IMG/VR virus record: IMGVR_UViG_3300042516_001240
Span: 1-36,635 of that record
Length of the DNA: 36,635 nucleotides
Origin: a virus
Reading direction: 5' to 3' (one strand)
Shown here piece by piece: positions 1 to 6,895 of the stretch. The stretch's first letter is position 1. Every line of letters begins with the position of its first letter. Both the position numbers and the translations under genes were made by a program. Under the pieces are notes generated by a model. That model did not search any database. It worked only from the letters and a program-made list of their open reading frames with translations, and was not told where the DNA came from.

Positions 1-318
1 AGCGTCTTCTACACTTTTAAGCACATTGGATGCATCTGGCTTCTTAATTGGCTTCTCCAAGCCGTTTAAACAGGCTTCTATGCGCTTTTTAGGCAAAGAC
101 TTAGGAATTGGCGCACGAATGTACAAATACAGCGTTACAGGGGTTTCCAATGGTTCGCTACTTCCCATTGCTTCTATTGCGGCTTCTTTGATTAAAGACT
201 CATAGTTTCTTGTTTTGTCAGGGGTGTAAGTTTGGACAAAGTTTCCTCGCTTTGCATACCTTGCTCTTTGTTTGCCAACAGGGTCAGCGTCTACTTTAAA
301 AGTGACCATGAAGCTCAT
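1..318 (-). CDS. rusA: RusA-like Holliday junction resolvase, N-terminal part (gene cut by window end)
   Basis: RusA-family endonucleases cleave Holliday junctions and branched DNA during phage recombination and before packaging. The 106 codons visible here begin with a V-DADPVGKQRARYAKRG stretch and end with KPDASNVLKSVEDA, which match the family's basic N-terminal strand and its metal-binding KPDxDN..K...DA region. I chose the ATG at 318 because it overlaps the methyltransferase stop as ATGA and has GGAG nine bases upstream; an ATG at 333 is possible. The second acidic residue of the DxD pair is Ser, which is unusual. The coding frame runs off base 1, and the missing C-terminus appears at 36541-36635. 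Confidence 0.85.
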   Translation of the reverse strand, partial: MSFMVTFKVDADPVGKQRARYAKRGNFVQTYTPDKTRNYESLIKEAAIEAMGSSEPLETPVTLYLYIRAPIPKSLPKKRIEACLNGLEKPIKKPDASNVLKSVEDA

Positions 319-1136
319 TTCAGGATTCTCCATGCTGTTGCTGCACACAAGGGGACTTGTCCGTTACCAATGGCTTTAAGTCTGTCCACCCTAGAGGCCA
401 CCCCATGAGCCACTCGACCCACGTTGGGTTCAGTTGACCACCATTTCCTGCTCCCATTAGCCGAGCCTCTTCGATTGTTGTGTTTTTGTTCAACAAATCC
501 CAACTCCCACTCCCGCCACACATCCCCTTTGTCCGAGGTGTAGGCCAAGTTAGAACCGCTGTGCTGAGACTCGTTTGAGTGCCTTTCTTGCCCTCCCTGC
601 GAATCTGTAGACCCTGCCTGGCCTCGCTGTGAACTGGTGTTGGCCAATTTGCCGACAATCCACATTCTGTCTCTCTGGTGTGGGGCATTAACATCGGCTG
701 CTCCCATAACAGTCCATTTACAGTCATACCCCATTTGGGTAAGGTCTCCAATGACTCTAACTCCTCCTCTAGTAGTGAGCATTGGGGAGTTTTCCACAAA
801 GACGTACTGTGATCGTACTTCGCCAACCACCCGTGCCATTTCTTTCCACATTCCGCTTCGCTCCCCATCGAGTCCATCACCCTTTCCTGCGGCAGAAATG
901 TCCTGACAGGGAAATCCACCTGAGATGACATCGACTTTTCCTGCCCAAGGCTTCCCATCGAATGTACAAATGTCATCCCAGATAGGGAATCTAGGTAAGA
1001 GTCCATCAGCTTGCCGTTGCAGTAAAACTCTGCGTGGGTAATCTTCGATTTCAACGGCTGCAACTGTTCTCCACCCGAGCAAATGTCCTCCAAGGATTCC
1101 CCCCCCAGCTCCCGCAAATAGTGCCAACTCATTCAA
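315..1136 (-). CDS. dcm: DNA cytosine-5 methyltransferase
   Basis: A 273-residue C5-cytosine methyltransferase that transfers a methyl group from SAM to cytosine in a DNA recognition sequence, likely protecting phage DNA from host restriction. Motifs in order: motif I LALFAGAGGG (about 4-13), motif IV GGFPCQDIS with catalytic Cys77, motif VI ENS (Glu115), motif VIII QRDR (154-157) and motif X GNGQVP (257-262). The variable target-recognition region between about 165 and 240 is short. The ATG at 1136 has AAGGA eight bases upstream, and the stop overlaps the start of rusA. Almost the whole gene is also open in the +1 frame (see the 320-1132 entry). Its neighbours are recombination and replication genes in one minus-strand operon. 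Confidence 0.93.
   Translation of the reverse strand: MNELALFAGAGGGILGGHLLGWRTVAAVEIEDYPRRVLLQRQADGLLPRFPIWDDICTFDGKPWAGKVDVISGGFPCQDISAAGKGDGLDGERSGMWKEMARVVGEVRSQYVFVENSPMLTTRGGVRVIGDLTQMGYDCKWTVMGAADVNAPHQRDRMWIVGKLANTSSQRGQAGSTDSQGGQERHSNESQHSGSNLAYTSDKGDVWREWELGFVEQKHNNRRGSANGSRKWWSTEPNVGRVAHGVASRVDRLKAIGNGQVPLCAATAWRILK
320..1132 (-). CDS. Overprinted ORF inside dcm (+1 frame), conserved-looking phage protein
   Basis: A 270-codon frame lies entirely within the methyltransferase gene in the +1 frame, starting four bases after the dcm ATG (ATGAATGAG) and stopping five bases before the dcm stop. From memory, its product resembles a widespread family of uncharacterised phage proteins, through the stretches ECGKKWHGWLAKYDHSTSLW, LPKWGMTVNG and NPTWVEWLMGWPLGWTDL and a C-terminal QQQHGES. 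By simple arithmetic (61/64 to the power 270), a chance open frame this long has probability of order one in a million, although codon bias of dcm could raise that. It may be a true dual-coding gene, or a frequently annotated shadow of methyltransferase motifs. Function unknown. Confidence 0.5.
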   Translation of the reverse strand: MSWHYLRELGGESLEDICSGGEQLQPLKSKITHAEFYCNGKLMDSYLDSLSGMTFVHSMGSLGQEKSMSSQVDFPVRTFLPQERVMDSMGSEAECGKKWHGWLAKYDHSTSLWKTPQCSLLEEELESLETLPKWGMTVNGLLWEQPMLMPHTRETECGLSANWPTPVHSEARQGLQIRREGKKGTQTSLSTAVLTWPTPRTKGMCGGSGSWDLLNKNTTIEEARLMGAGNGGQLNPTWVEWLMGWPLGWTDLKPLVTDKSPCVQQQHGES

Positions 1137-1344: not shown

Positions 1345-1830
1345 TTAACCAAAATTTGCATATTCGCCATGAAGTTGTACCGCTTTCTGTCGATACATTT
1401 CATGTGCCTCTTCAGGGCTGTTAAAAGCACCCAAGTAAAAATGTTTTTTATTTTGTTTGATTTGAGCAACCCACTTATTCATTCTTCTATTAAATGAAAC
1501 ACCCTTGAAGCCTGATTTATTCAATGATGTTTTTTTAATATTCATCATGTTTTGACATCTTGTAACCTCACGAAGATTCTGAATCATGTTGTCTTGCTTG
1601 TTTCCATTTATGTGATCCACATATTTTGGAAGATATCCATGATGGTATAAAAATATCAATCTATGAACATAAACAGCCTTCTTAAAAAACTTCATATAGA
1701 CATAACCATTCGGCATCAAATTGCCTAGAGCTGTTTTTTTTGCGTTAGGTCTGATAGAAAAATCAATCCAGTACAAAAAACCATTTTCATACTTAAGGTG
1801 ATTTTTAAGGAGTGTTTGAGATAAGTCCAT
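1345..1830 (-). CDS. HNH endonuclease with AP2 DNA-binding domain
   Basis: A 161-residue free-standing HNH nuclease of the type often found as a mobile homing element in phage genomes. The HNH_3 core spans about residues 54-98, with YVHRLIF, VDHINGNKQDN (71-81) and QN..N; the C-terminus (about 106-161) is an AP2-type domain with SGFKGVSF, W-A-I and YLGAF. It would nick or cut double-stranded DNA at a site recognised through the AP2 domain. The gene is visibly richer in A and T than dcm and the replication gene beside it, which fits later insertion. It sits between a 35-residue ORF and the 70-residue ORF and does not break a recognisable gene. Confidence 0.92.
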   Translation of the reverse strand: MDLSQTLLKNHLKYENGFLYWIDFSIRPNAKKTALGNLMPNGYVYMKFFKKAVYVHRLIFLYHHGYLPKYVDHINGNKQDNMIQNLREVTRCQNMMNIKKTSLNKSGFKGVSFNRRMNKWVAQIKQNKKHFYLGAFNSPEEAHEMYRQKAVQLHGEYANFG

Positions 1831-2699: not shown

Positions 2700-2827
2700 A
2701 GTGTGTGCCGCTTTTTAAACCACCCTTAAAGGAATTGCCAGCAGGAGAAGGGTTAACTCTTTTCGGTTGGGTAGCAACTCCCGACCTAGCTGGATTCCAT
2801 AATATCAAAACAATTCTACTTTGTAAA

Positions 2828-3193
2828 TCAAATAAATTGATTGTTGGTGATCTCTTTCGCAGGTTTTGGTCTGCCAAGCAATCGTTTAGCCTGTGCATTC
2901 ATCACAGCGTACTCTGATTTACTAAAGATGCCTTTGGCGTTTCTGATGTCAAAAGGGTTTAGTAAGCAGCGAGTTTCGTCTTTTGGCTTGCTCTCAATTA
3001 GATGATCTGCAAGGGTGTACTTGGCAACTCTGTAGCGACCAACCTTGACCTCTTCTGTGGTTAGCTCACCTTTGTATCTCAACTTCTTAGCTGTGGACAA
3101 TACAGAGGATTTAGGCATTCCTGTTAAATCACAGACTTCTTGTGAAGTAAGTGGCCCATTCTGTAGAGCTTTAATGATCATGGCTTGAGTCAT
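2828..3193 (-). CDS. Winged helix-turn-helix protein
   Basis: A 121-residue probable DNA-binding protein. The first 60 residues form a MarR/IclR-like winged helix: MIIKALQNGPLTSQEVCDLT, then the recognition helix around KSSVLSTAKKLRYKGEL and a wing ending RYRVAKYTL. The C-terminal half is basic and polar, with no known domain. Its ATG overlaps the stop of the 59-residue leader gene as ATGA. Placed first among recognisable genes of the early operon, it could regulate early transcription or help load the replication protein; that role is inferred from position only. It is one candidate to bind the dispersed AGGGT motif. Confidence 0.75.
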   Translation of the reverse strand: MTQAMIIKALQNGPLTSQEVCDLTGMPKSSVLSTAKKLRYKGELTTEEVKVGRYRVAKYTLADHLIESKPKDETRCLLNPFDIRNAKGIFSKSEYAVMNAQAKRLLGRPKPAKEITNNQFI

Positions 3194-4248: not shown

Positions 4249-4869
4249 ATGGGCGTACATAAGAAGTTAATGGAAGCAAGAATTGCATTGCAAGCGGCTC
4301 CACTCAAGAAGTCTGGTCACAACAAGTTTGCAGGGTATCAATACTTTGAACTTGGTGACTTTCTCCCAACAATCAATCAGATCTTCCACAAGGTTGGATT
4401 GTGTGGCGTAGTTTCGTTTGACAAAGAACTGGCTACTCTGTGCATCACAGATACAGAAGATGGCTCTCAGATCGTTCTTACAAGCCCTATGGCAGAAGCT
4501 AACCTAAAGGGATGTCATCCCATCCAAAATTTGGGCGCTGTAGAAACCTACACTAGAAGATACCTATGGGTTTCAGCAATGGAGATTGTTGAGCATGATG
4601 CGCTTGACTCTTCTGCTCCCATCAAAGAAGAGAAGCAAGCTCCTGTGATTACACCAACACAAGGTGCAACAGACAATATTCCTCCAGAGGAATTACAGTA
4701 CTTGCAAGAGTTAGCAGTTGAACTGATTGCTACTTGTGAGCAAGGTGATCCCAAGGCAGCTTGGGTTAAGTTGGAAGGGGAGAACTTGGATGATCAACAA
4801 AAGATTGCCCTGTGGACACTCCTTCCCAGTAAAGTGCGTTCATCATTAAAGAAAGCTAAGGAAATTTAA
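4249..4869 (+). CDS. erf: ERF-family single-strand annealing protein
   Basis: A 206-residue recombinase of the ERF superfamily (P22 Erf-like), which anneals complementary single strands in phage recombination and end circularisation. Signature stretches: HNKFAGYQYFELGDFLPTI (24-42), GAVETYTRRYLW (96-107) and AMEIVEHDALD (110-120). After about residue 125 a Pro/Gln/Thr linker leads to a C-terminal acidic-helical tail, as in the family. AAGGAAAAATC precedes the ATG. The stop shares bases with the ATG of the next gene (TAATG), which encodes a likely ssDNA-binding partner. Confidence 0.9.
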   Translation: MGVHKKLMEARIALQAAPLKKSGHNKFAGYQYFELGDFLPTINQIFHKVGLCGVVSFDKELATLCITDTEDGSQIVLTSPMAEANLKGCHPIQNLGAVETYTRRYLWVSAMEIVEHDALDSSAPIKEEKQAPVITPTQGATDNIPPEELQYLQELAVELIATCEQGDPKAAWVKLEGENLDDQQKIALWTLLPSKVRSSLKKAKEI

Positions 4870-5108
4870 TGGACAAGAGAGATAACAGTGGCGTTCTTTT
4901 TAAGAACGATAAAAAAGAGACAGGCAACCACCCTGACTACAAAGGAAATATTACAGTCAATGGTCAAGATTTTTGGCTATCTGCATGGATTAAAGAGGGT
5001 AAGGGAGGCAAGTTCATGGGACTAGCACTCTCACCTAAAGAGCCACAAGCAAAACCATCAGCAAGGTCTAAAGCAACAGGCTTTGATGACGAAGATTTGC
5101 CGTTCTAA
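4869..5108 (+). CDS. Small protein with SSB-like acidic tail
   Basis: A 79-residue protein starting MDKRDNSGVLFKNDKKETGN; it has a compact beta-rich core (ITVNGQDFWLSAWIKEG, GGKFMGLALSPKEP), a short linker and the C-terminal tip DDEDLPF. That tip copies the acidic, Phe-ending tail by which bacterial SSB recruits partner proteins. The core matches a small phage/bacterial family I remember as uncharacterised, without a full OB-fold of SSB length. Coupled to the annealing protein by a TAATG overlap, it probably works with it on single-stranded DNA. A pseudoknot-like element starts a few bases after the stop. Confidence 0.75.
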   Translation: MDKRDNSGVLFKNDKKETGNHPDYKGNITVNGQDFWLSAWIKEGKGGKFMGLALSPKEPQAKPSARSKATGFDDEDLPF

Positions 5109-5113
5109 TATTC

Positions 5114-5187
5114 GGGGGGAAAGCGGATGCTGTGCCAGTTGCAATGACAAGCATCTGACTTAATGCACAGACGCAGCGAGTACCCCC
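5114..5187 (+). promoter_or_regulatory. Candidate structured RNA (clamped H-type pseudoknot)
   Basis: Between the SSB-tail gene and the next ribosome binding site, the sequence folds by hand into an H-type pseudoknot. Stem 1 pairs 5124-5130 with 5151-5157 (CGGATGC/GCATCTG, one G-U); stem 2 pairs 5131-5135 with 5165-5169 (TGTGC/GCACA). Two outer helices close it: GCG 5123-5125 with CGC 5172-5174 (sharing bases with stem 1, so alternative at the edge) and GGGGG 5115-5119 with CCCCC 5183-5187. It sits 14 bases before AGGAG of the 5212 gene, suiting a cis-regulator of translation or a message-stability element. Confidence 0.5.
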
Positions 5188-5211
5188 ACCACAATTCAAC
5201 AGGAGTTAATG

Positions 5212-5526
5212 ATGGACTATAAGAAAATATTTAAGACGATGTTCCCAATTGGTGAGTTTCCACGAGTGAGAAGCTCAGATCCAGTAACATCTTTTGAGGC
5301 AGCAGAGCAGATTAAAGAATCTGCTAAACAACATCACCAGGTCATCCTAGAATGCTTAAAAACACATGGTGCTTTGGGCAAAGATGGTATAGCTGCATTG
5401 ACAGACCTAGATGGTAATCAAGTCGCTAGACGCTTAAACGAGATGAAAGTATTAGGTCTTATCCAACTAACTGGCAAAACAGTTAAATCAAACTCAGGCA
5501 GAAACGAAAGAGAGTGGTCAATATGA
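5212..5526 (+). CDS. Winged helix-turn-helix protein
   Basis: A 104-residue protein. After a short N-terminal extension comes SSDPVTSFEAAEQIKESAKQ, then a winged helix: HHQVILECLKTHGALGKDGI, the probable recognition helix GNQVARRLNEMKVLGLI and a wing TGKTVKSNSGRNEREW. This arrangement is frequent in phage proteins of unknown function and is like the MarR/LexA-type winged helix. Tandem ATGs occur at 5209 and 5212; 5212 has the better six-base spacing from AGGAG. The stop overlaps the MazG gene as ATGA. It may regulate DNA metabolism genes or bind DNA ends. Confidence 0.75.
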   Translation: MDYKKIFKTMFPIGEFPRVRSSDPVTSFEAAEQIKESAKQHHQVILECLKTHGALGKDGIAALTDLDGNQVARRLNEMKVLGLIQLTGKTVKSNSGRNEREWSI

Positions 5527-5837: not shown

Positions 5838-6411
5838 CGTGATTTATGTGCTTAATTCTGTCGTCTAGACCAATAAAACCGCCATTGATCTTTTTGGTCA
5901 TGGTTTTGTAGTCACGAACATCTGCAAATTGGTTGAGTTTCTGGGTATTCCAGAACCAACCAGCAGTGAGAGCCGCATACATTGGAGTTGCAACCAAATC
6001 AGGCTCCATCACAAAATCCACCCCTAGAGCTTGCCCTGCATGATAGTAATTAGCATGGCCTGTCAACTGGATGCAACCCCTGCCTCTGAAACGATATCCA
6101 TCACCAGAGGCTTCATCCCTGTTTCCCATACGTGAGCTGTAAACAGTATTGGCAATAGCCTTTGGATTACGAGCGCACATCTGTGCTTTGGTAGCATCAA
6201 AGCGTTTAGGCCATAACTTTTGCAGAGCTTCTGCACGATAGTTCAGGTTCTCCTCTAAGATCTTAAAATTACCGCACTCATGGCTACATTGACCAATAAA
6301 CGATGCTTGGCGTACTGGAGTACTGATATCAAAACGCTCAAAAGTTGCGTTCAAAGCATCAACCCATTGCTCACCAATGTGTAGCTTTGCAAGTTGTTCT
6401 TTATTTACCAT
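5815..6411 (-). CDS. Endolysin, glycoside hydrolase family 19 type
   Basis: A 198-residue chitinase-like (GH19) lysozyme that cuts the glycan strands of peptidoglycan to release progeny. The catalytic region is GQCSHECGNFKILEE, with the acid Glu at about residue 45 and the second Glu at 53-54; YRFRGRGCIQLTG (106-118) is the conserved substrate-groove loop, and the C-terminus has TKKINGGFIGLDDR. There is no signal peptide or separate wall-binding domain, so export should depend on a holin. It is the most downstream gene of the lysis block, overlapping Rz by 11 bases. Confidence 0.93.
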   Translation of the reverse strand: MVNKEQLAKLHIGEQWVDALNATFERFDISTPVRQASFIGQCSHECGNFKILEENLNYRAEALQKLWPKRFDATKAQMCARNPKAIANTVYSSRMGNRDEASGDGYRFRGRGCIQLTGHANYYHAGQALGVDFVMEPDLVATPMYAALTAGWFWNTQKLNQFADVRDYKTMTKKINGGFIGLDDRIKHINHAMQVLTA

Positions 6412-6895
6412 TTAACAAATTCCTTACATCGTTATAAGCATCTATACAGGCATTTAGTTGGGCAGTGTTTCTATCACCCTGAGCAACTATTTCTGCGATG
6501 GCTTGGAGGGTTGCTCGCTCGGCATCAGAAGCTTGGTCAACCTGTCTGTCAGGTTCACTTCTTGTTTCTGGATTTGTGGGGGCAGCGGGGGTACTTGCGG
6601 GGGCTTGTACACAACTGGCGGTGGGGAGGCGCACCCTACCAGCACGAATGGCAGAATCCAAAGCACTTTGTTTTTGATTGACAACATTTGTAGTCTCCTG
6701 AAGTTTGGTGGCAGTAGAGTTAATTTGCTCAGTAAGTTTCAGTTCAGTCTGACGAGATTCCTCATTCTTCCGAGCAATCTCAATCTGCATTTCAGCATCA
6801 CGATCTGACCATCCGAAATGGTATCCACCACGATATGTACCAAATAAGATCACGAATGACCCAACCAGTAGCCAAGGAAGTGGTATGCCAAACAT
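6401..6895 (-). CDS. Rz: Inner-membrane spanin subunit (Rz-like)
   Basis: A 164-residue protein with an N-terminal membrane anchor (about 6-24, PWLLVGSFVILFGTYRGGY), then a long charged coiled coil (about 35-85) and a C-terminal periplasmic segment ending NACIDAYNDVRNLLNGK, as in many Rz proteins. Rz and Rz1 span the periplasm and fuse the inner and outer membranes in the last step of lysis of Gram-negative hosts. The Rz1 partner is embedded in a different frame at 6487-6687. The ATG directly follows the stop of the 168-residue membrane protein. Confidence 0.88.
   Translation of the reverse strand: MFGIPLPWLLVGSFVILFGTYRGGYHFGWSDRDAEMQIEIARKNEESRQTELKLTEQINSTATKLQETTNVVNQKQSALDSAIRAGRVRLPTASCVQAPASTPAAPTNPETRSEPDRQVDQASDAERATLQAIAEIVAQGDRNTAQLNACIDAYNDVRNLLNGK
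6487..6687 (-). CDS. Rz1: Outer-membrane spanin lipoprotein (Rz1-like), nested in Rz
   Basis: A 66-residue lipoprotein wholly inside Rz in another frame. It has a basic N-terminus, a hydrophobic segment and the lipobox LVGC with Cys19 as lipidation site. The mature part is very proline-rich (SPPPVVYKPPQVPPLPPQ), which is diagnostic of Rz1. AGGAG lies eight bases before the ATG, so it has its own translation start. The full nesting is known from lambda-like systems and explains the low-complexity Ala/Pro/Thr stretch of Rz in the same DNA. Confidence 0.9.
   Translation of the reverse strand: MLSIKNKVLWILPFVLVGCASPPPVVYKPPQVPPLPPQIQKQEVNLTDRLTKLLMPSEQPSKPSQK

Follow-up and report, generated by a model that had tools for sequence, protein, structure and literature searches.

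The window, by which we mean the whole stretch of DNA analysed, was a 36,635-base virus record; among its genes were those for portal, major head, terminase and lysis proteins. On its plus strand, an Erf-like gene (4249-4869) was followed by an SSB-like gene (4869-5108), which ended in an acidic tail (...DDEDLPF) and matched a PHROG single-strand DNA binding protein (6.7e-15). A gap of 100 bases separated this gene from a winged-helix-like gene (5209-5526, plus strand), which matched PHROG 1123 (7.1e-14, unknown function) and, weakly, MarR (0.00063). The Shine-Dalgarno sequence of the latter gene, AGGAG, was recognized from the sequence at 5202-5206. Between the two genes, at about 5113-5191 of the plus strand, lay a structured RNA element whose outermost helix (P1) began 5 nt downstream of the stop codon of the SSB-like gene. 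Elsewhere in the window, nested frames at 6401-6895 and 6487-6687 (minus strand) resembled an Rz/Rz1 spanin pair, the inner frame having a lipobox-like start, and by eye an HNH-type homing-endonuclease-like frame (1345-1830, minus strand) adjoined a DNA methyltransferase-like gene (315-1136, minus strand).

All parts of the element were read on the plus strand. P1 paired GGGGG (5114-5118) with CCCCC (5183-5187), both strands being assigned by covariation, and was preceded by the unpaired U-2 and C-1 (5112-5113), which in the family were A/U and then a pyrimidine. The 5′ arm, GAAAGCGGAUGC (5119-5130), comprised the GAAA of internal loop 1, the GC of P2 (paired with 5176-5177), the GGAUG of internal loop 2 and C5130 of the closing pair. 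The 3′ arm, GACGCAGCGAGUA (5170-5182), supplied the ACGCA of internal loop 2, the second GC of P2 and the GAGUA of internal loop 1. Between the arms was the hypervariable and exchangeable apical domain X (5131-5169), defined by covariation of its base stem, its diversity, its swapping as a cassette and its fold; in the window it contained a stem (5131-5135/5165-5169), an inner hairpin (CAG/CUG and UGC/GCA) and a 7-nt 3′ bulge. Directly 3′ of P1 was a tRNA-like tail, ACCA (5188-5191), the analogue of A73-C74-C75, recognized from the frequency of ACC in the family. The minimum-energy fold of 5114-5190 was identical to the family structure (-28.8 kcal/mol, z = -2.75), and was equalled by 2 of 200 shuffles; the folding program used cannot draw pseudoknots. 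A longer stretch that included the flanks folded unremarkably (z = -1.41).

Such a stem followed the stop codon of the SSB gene, ahead of the next Shine-Dalgarno sequence, in most of 80 viral relatives of that gene. In many of them the fixed arms GAAAGCGGATGC and GACGCAGCGAGTA flanked a variable middle; others were shorter relatives, and two (L047 and L051) had a plain GGGGGG hairpin at the same place. The common scaffold was P1 – GAAAGCGGAUGC – X – GACGCAGCGAGUA – P1′ – ACC. A pattern scan of viral contigs found both arms in at least 119 IMG/VR stretches, and seven matches to the two-arm pattern were present in 84,980 bacterial and archaeal genomes. Scaling from the subset with an innermost U·G pair in P1 (44 stretches; 7 of 131 elements) gave a rough estimate of several hundred, perhaps 800, copies in viral contigs. 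With a covariance model, the element was located in 2 of 399 genomes of the order (Burkholderiales) of a Burkholderiaceae carrier, and a search of limited sensitivity in annotated phage records returned one clear copy, in the metagenome-assembled genome MW202879. The exact pattern was found in 35 of 48 viral records searched, with one copy in each, which ruled out a mobile repeat. Tandem sets of stems were also seen, with two in L005, two in L033 and four in succession in L088, where they lay behind an SSB gene (2757-2992, minus strand, and upstream). The outer two of these four stems kept P1, GAAA/GAGUA and ACC, and had an uninterrupted P2 in place of the GGAUGC/GACGCA core, indicating that the exact-arm pattern does not capture the whole family.

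Nothing in the window reached the gathering score of any Rfam 15 family, and the stretch 4850-5400 gave no hit even at E-values up to 10; 12 relatives produced only hits under the gathering scores of the families concerned. No description of the element was found in open-access papers. The RNA family is absent from Rfam 15, and the evidence that it is a new family is strong.

To assess the pairing, 40 diverse members were aligned. The structure named above had 94.5% standard pairs and 84 double-change cells, and its covariation score was 0.424; shuffled data scored 0.128, and sliding the partner strand never gave more than 0.109. Variation was confined to P1 and the base of X, and all five positions of P1 showed changes on both sides that preserved the pair. 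RNAalifold, unaided, arrived at the same three helices (P1, P2 and the basal stem of X). All 25 core letters were invariant in this set, whose members had been chosen by exact arms. In 2.9 million viral contigs, scanned for cores with changes in both strands of P2 or in both strands of the inner loop, such variants were near-absent: one uncompensated case and one sequence unlike the element were returned. Judged by its strands and their order, the GAAA/GAGUA loop probably forms a module like the bulged-G (sarcin-ricin) motif. The inner loop may adopt either of two pairings, UGC/GCA with GGA and GAC bulges or a C-G pair closing a 5x5 loop, between which covariation cannot choose since the core is invariant.

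A sequence-only reading of the window had proposed a cis-acting structured RNA, new to Rfam, between the SSB-tail and winged-helix genes and shortly 5′ of AGGAG, and had suggested covariation and Rfam checks. Both checks bore it out: compensatory changes were present among homologues, and no known family was matched. The letters and complementarities it described exist. Its closing G5/C5 helix is real and covaries strongly; however, its register (5115-5119) was off by one, because G5119 belongs to the invariant GAAA and the family register therefore starts at 5114 (5114-5118 with 5183-5187). The helix at 5131-5135/5165-5169 (UGUGC/GCACA) likewise proved real, being the covarying base of X. The helix said to interleave with it (5124-5130/5151-5157) is complementary in the window, but in the 40 diverse relatives only 41.6% of cells were paired and no change on both sides was seen. 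Its 5′ strand lies in the invariant arm and its partner in the hypervariable X, where the closest relatives of this X (L002 and others) had GCCUCUG in place of GCAUCUG. Lacking a conserved interleaving helix in these relatives, the H-type pseudoknot was ruled out, and the analogy with compact pseudoknot riboswitches that had been built on it is thus unsupported. The initial observation was therefore confirmed in part and its interpretation supported in part. The STAXI motif (PMC2864571) is likewise structured, lies near genes for single-stranded-DNA-binding and other DNA-handling proteins and is sometimes tandem; however, it consists of a pseudoknot in two or three copies, whereas the present element is usually a single stem with no supported pseudoknot and no Rfam match.

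Domain X was 23-52 nt long, with 127 distinct sequences among 131 elements, and folded modestly better than shuffled sequences (mean z of about -0.7 to -0.9). Thirty-five pairs of elements shared the same X with different flanks, and 39 shared the same downstream flank with a different X; X is exchanged between phages as a cassette. Two functions for this region were considered and rejected. As an antisense or guide sequence, X gave longest same-locus matches barely above those of shuffled X. Nor was the AUG in GGAUGC upheld as the start of a coding sequence or leader peptide, since the length of X had no strong frame preference and frame lengths were near those of shuffles.

The innermost P1 pair was U·G in 44 viral stretches compared to C·A in 5, counts that include near-relative contigs and are not fully independent. 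As a plus-strand RNA tolerates U·G, this bias indicates that the element acts as RNA of the plus strand, and it speaks against a DNA hairpin. In 141 of 171 elements the stop codon of the upstream frame was within 30 nt, and for 128 of these 141 the distance from stop to P1 was 4-12 nt. Strong sigma-70-like sites were present 4-9 nt before P1 in eight elements (1.3 expected; maximum of 5 in 200 shuffles), most clearly in L108, L113 and L118. From these sequences, a promoter would seem to set the transcript start at P1 in a minority of elements. An element acting at the DNA level, as a replication origin, a single-stranded DNA hairpin or a recombination site for cassette exchange, would agree with the single exact copy per record, the replication gene cluster and the swapping of X between fixed arms, yet the excess of U·G over C·A (44 versus 5), the co-directional placement behind stop codons and the placement at promoter starts all favour RNA, and we regard a DNA element as very improbable.

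The proteins encoded upstream were compared with PHROG and Pfam (n = 116). The ssDNA-binding PHROG families 7364 and 18154 matched 16 each, largely the same proteins; further matches were to Gp2.5-like family 112 (seven), family 44 (five), families 6015 and 378 (two each), Mu Gam-like proteins (three) and RecT (one). Independently, Pfam identified seven Enc34 ssDNA-binding and five SSB proteins. Where an upstream gene was annotated, it thus most often encoded an ssDNA-binding protein, and these proteins belong to four or more unrelated families. Downstream genes were diverse by eye, and included winged-helix, MazG-like and DNA-polymerase-like genes and others. The suggestion that the element is bound, as its general role, by the SSB-like or winged-helix protein of this phage looks unlikely, because the same core occurs behind SSB genes of several unrelated families and is followed by a wide variety of genes. 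In L003 and L021 an inserted gene split the ssb gene from the element, showing that the element stays with the downstream gene.

Downstream genes started 15-20 nt past P1 where a Shine-Dalgarno sequence was present and 7-11 nt past it in about 15 loci without one, some of these with DNA-polymerase-like genes. Genes in L151, L217, L095, L109, L114 and L103, some of them DNA-polymerase-like, began 7-11 nt past P1′ with no Shine-Dalgarno sequence, so that the stem base occupies the place of the Shine-Dalgarno helix. Such proximity to the start, together with two invariant internal loops of a kind typical of recognition sites, would suit a protein or small-ligand site that controls downstream translation in a riboswitch-like or autoregulatory manner. 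We consider this improbable, as there is great diversity among the downstream genes, SSB genes of unrelated families precede the same core, the Shine-Dalgarno sequence had no apparent alternative pairing and X is, in our judgement, far more variable than the usual side stem of a riboswitch.

Several other sequences recurred around the element. Directly 3′ of it in L082, L083, L097 and L100 was the sequence taatacgcc aagccgg ta gtggcg ... ccggcagcaggggcta, which could fold as a pseudoknot of its own or as a pair of hairpins. In the same position in L099, L113, L134 and L137, contigs that otherwise differ, the phrase ACACGCATG(G/A) was repeated. A gene for a small, Cys-rich, secreted-looking protein (MKKVIVGVWL...ASCTYSTY...CTTCC) repeatedly adjoined the element (L003:705-863, L118, L189, L190 and L194); the L003 protein had no PHROG match. 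Endonuclease VII/HNH-like genes of the MTTSKECFKCKTIKPLEEFY... type were directly upstream in L021 (5297-5728), L176 and L191. The spot upstream of the element looks as if it were an insertion hot spot.

At the base of the stem, ACC directly followed P1′ in 97 of 149 elements, at any P1 length, and RCC did so in 105 of 141; about a third of members were without an exact ACC. After C-run stems ACC was present in 47 of 58 cases, compared to 4.2% behind C runs generally. The window has the full ACCA; among the 97 ACC-tailed members the fourth base was mostly U (58) and not A. In these members N-1 was C or U in 87 and N-2 was A or U in 92. The innermost P1 pair was G-C in 57 of them and the outermost in 93, the latter count being partly conditioned by C-rich stems since it was made on ACC-tailed members. 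Most same-locus relatives without the core, or with plain hairpins, still kept the ACC/stem-base junction, and by eye a tRNA-like sequence preceded the element in L105 and L172.

The product of T4 gene 32 is the SSB of that phage. In substrates of RNase P, RCC forms base pairs with the GGU of the P15 loop in the RNase P RNA, and N-1 and the G1-C72 pair are located at the cleavage site (PMC11143913, PMC12710915). The enzyme is reported to cut T4 gene 32 mRNA and the phage M3 and C4 RNAs (PMC11143913). As a sequence, the stem base matches these site rules: a pyrimidine at -1, G1-C72 and A73-C74-C75. With the non-tRNA substrates (T4 gene 32 mRNA, M3, C4 and RCCA model hairpins; PMC11143913, PMC12710915) the element shares R-C-C after the stem, an unpaired pyrimidine before it, G1-C72 and a phage mRNA context, which in T4 is the SSB mRNA. 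It differs from them in its invariant GAAA/GAGUA and GGAUG/ACGCA loops, in its large variable distal domain and in that no T-loop-like hairpin was evident in it at 12 bp. P1 was 3-6 bp long across the family; with about four non-canonical pairs and 2 bp the stacked length would be about 9-12, and the loop there, although invariant, does not resemble a T-loop.

The best explanation, with a probability of roughly 0.42, is that the element is a tRNA-like cis element that fixes the 5′ end of an mRNA, through cleavage by host RNase P or through transcription start. The element is a structured RNA of the plus strand that acts in cis in phage replication operons, usually in one copy to a genome. It folds into one long irregular stem of P1, a GAAA/GAGUA loop of probable bulged-G type, the 2-bp P2, the conserved 5x5 loop and the exchangeable apical domain. 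Its base mimics the acceptor end of a tRNA, with an unpaired pyrimidine at -1, G1-C72 and then A-C-C. Host RNase P would most likely recognize this base and cleave just 5′ of P1, separating the SSB message from the downstream message, which would gain a structured 5′ end; with only partial cutting, the hairpin may in addition shield the 3′ part of the SSB message. At a minority of loci a promoter would set the transcription start at the same point of P1, which would make cleavage unnecessary there. The invariant loops may present the stem in the manner of a tRNA elbow. X would then correspond to the anticodon domain, uncontacted and hence free to vary. RNase P is favoured because of the stem-base signature, present also in relatives without the core, and because of the tRNA-like neighbours in L105 and L172. 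The measuring rule of the enzyme is not clearly satisfied, with no T-loop evident at 12 bp and a P1 of 3-6 bp, and RNase P by itself leaves the invariance of the 25 core letters unexplained. The family, its structure, strand, position and stem-base signature are established by the data, while RNase P cleavage, an effect on expression and the parts played by the core and by X are inferred. Our confidence in this mechanism is tentative because that conservation has no explanation unless the core imitates the tRNA elbow.

SSB is required in quantity, and a plain hairpin that segments or stabilizes the mRNA without RNase P, blocking 3′ exonucleases behind the abundant SSB message and/or shielding the downstream 5′ end, would agree with this, with the GGGGGG hairpin that is all L047 and L051 have at this place and with P1 as a likely transcript start at some loci. 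The core would then only add unusual stability; mere stability, however, needs neither an invariant 25-letter core nor an ACC tail, and this explanation is unlikely.

The invariance of the core in very different phages suggests a host partner, which could also be RNA polymerase. An RNA-only processive antiterminator or antipausing element, similar to HK022 put, would bind the polymerase and keep the replication operon transcribed; some copies are placed at a probable transcription start, comparable to putL close to its promoter (PMC9378689), and tandem copies exist. Put RNA is also a phage cis RNA of similar size, located at or near the transcription start and requiring no phage protein partner (PMC9378689). 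However, put consists of two stem-loops and no resemblance to it was seen, the element being a single long stem around an invariant core, found mostly between genes and once per genome. Most copies are within operons, right after a stop codon, and the ACC tail is left unexplained, making an antiterminator distinctly unlikely.

In this family, which probably has several hundred copies in environmental phages, core conservation is strict enough to imply an important partner, yet the tip is freely exchanged. If the base of the element is an RNase P site, T4 gene 32 would cease to be a lone example, and cleavage of replication mRNAs downstream of SSB genes would be a common phage practice. If it is not, another host machine would be addressed by diverse phages with one RNA. 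A broader proposal, speculative and on balance doubtful, is that the element represents a phage RNA device of a new class, which was recruited more than once, independently, downstream of SSB genes of unrelated families. Its invariant scaffold would be recognized by some universal host machinery (RNase P, RNA polymerase or the ribosome) and would carry a diversifying, exchangeable apical cassette with a function of its own, for example in evading, or competing with, other phages or host defences. Whether or not its base is an RNase P site, the element provides a ready marker of phage replication operons and an RNA that can be tested directly.
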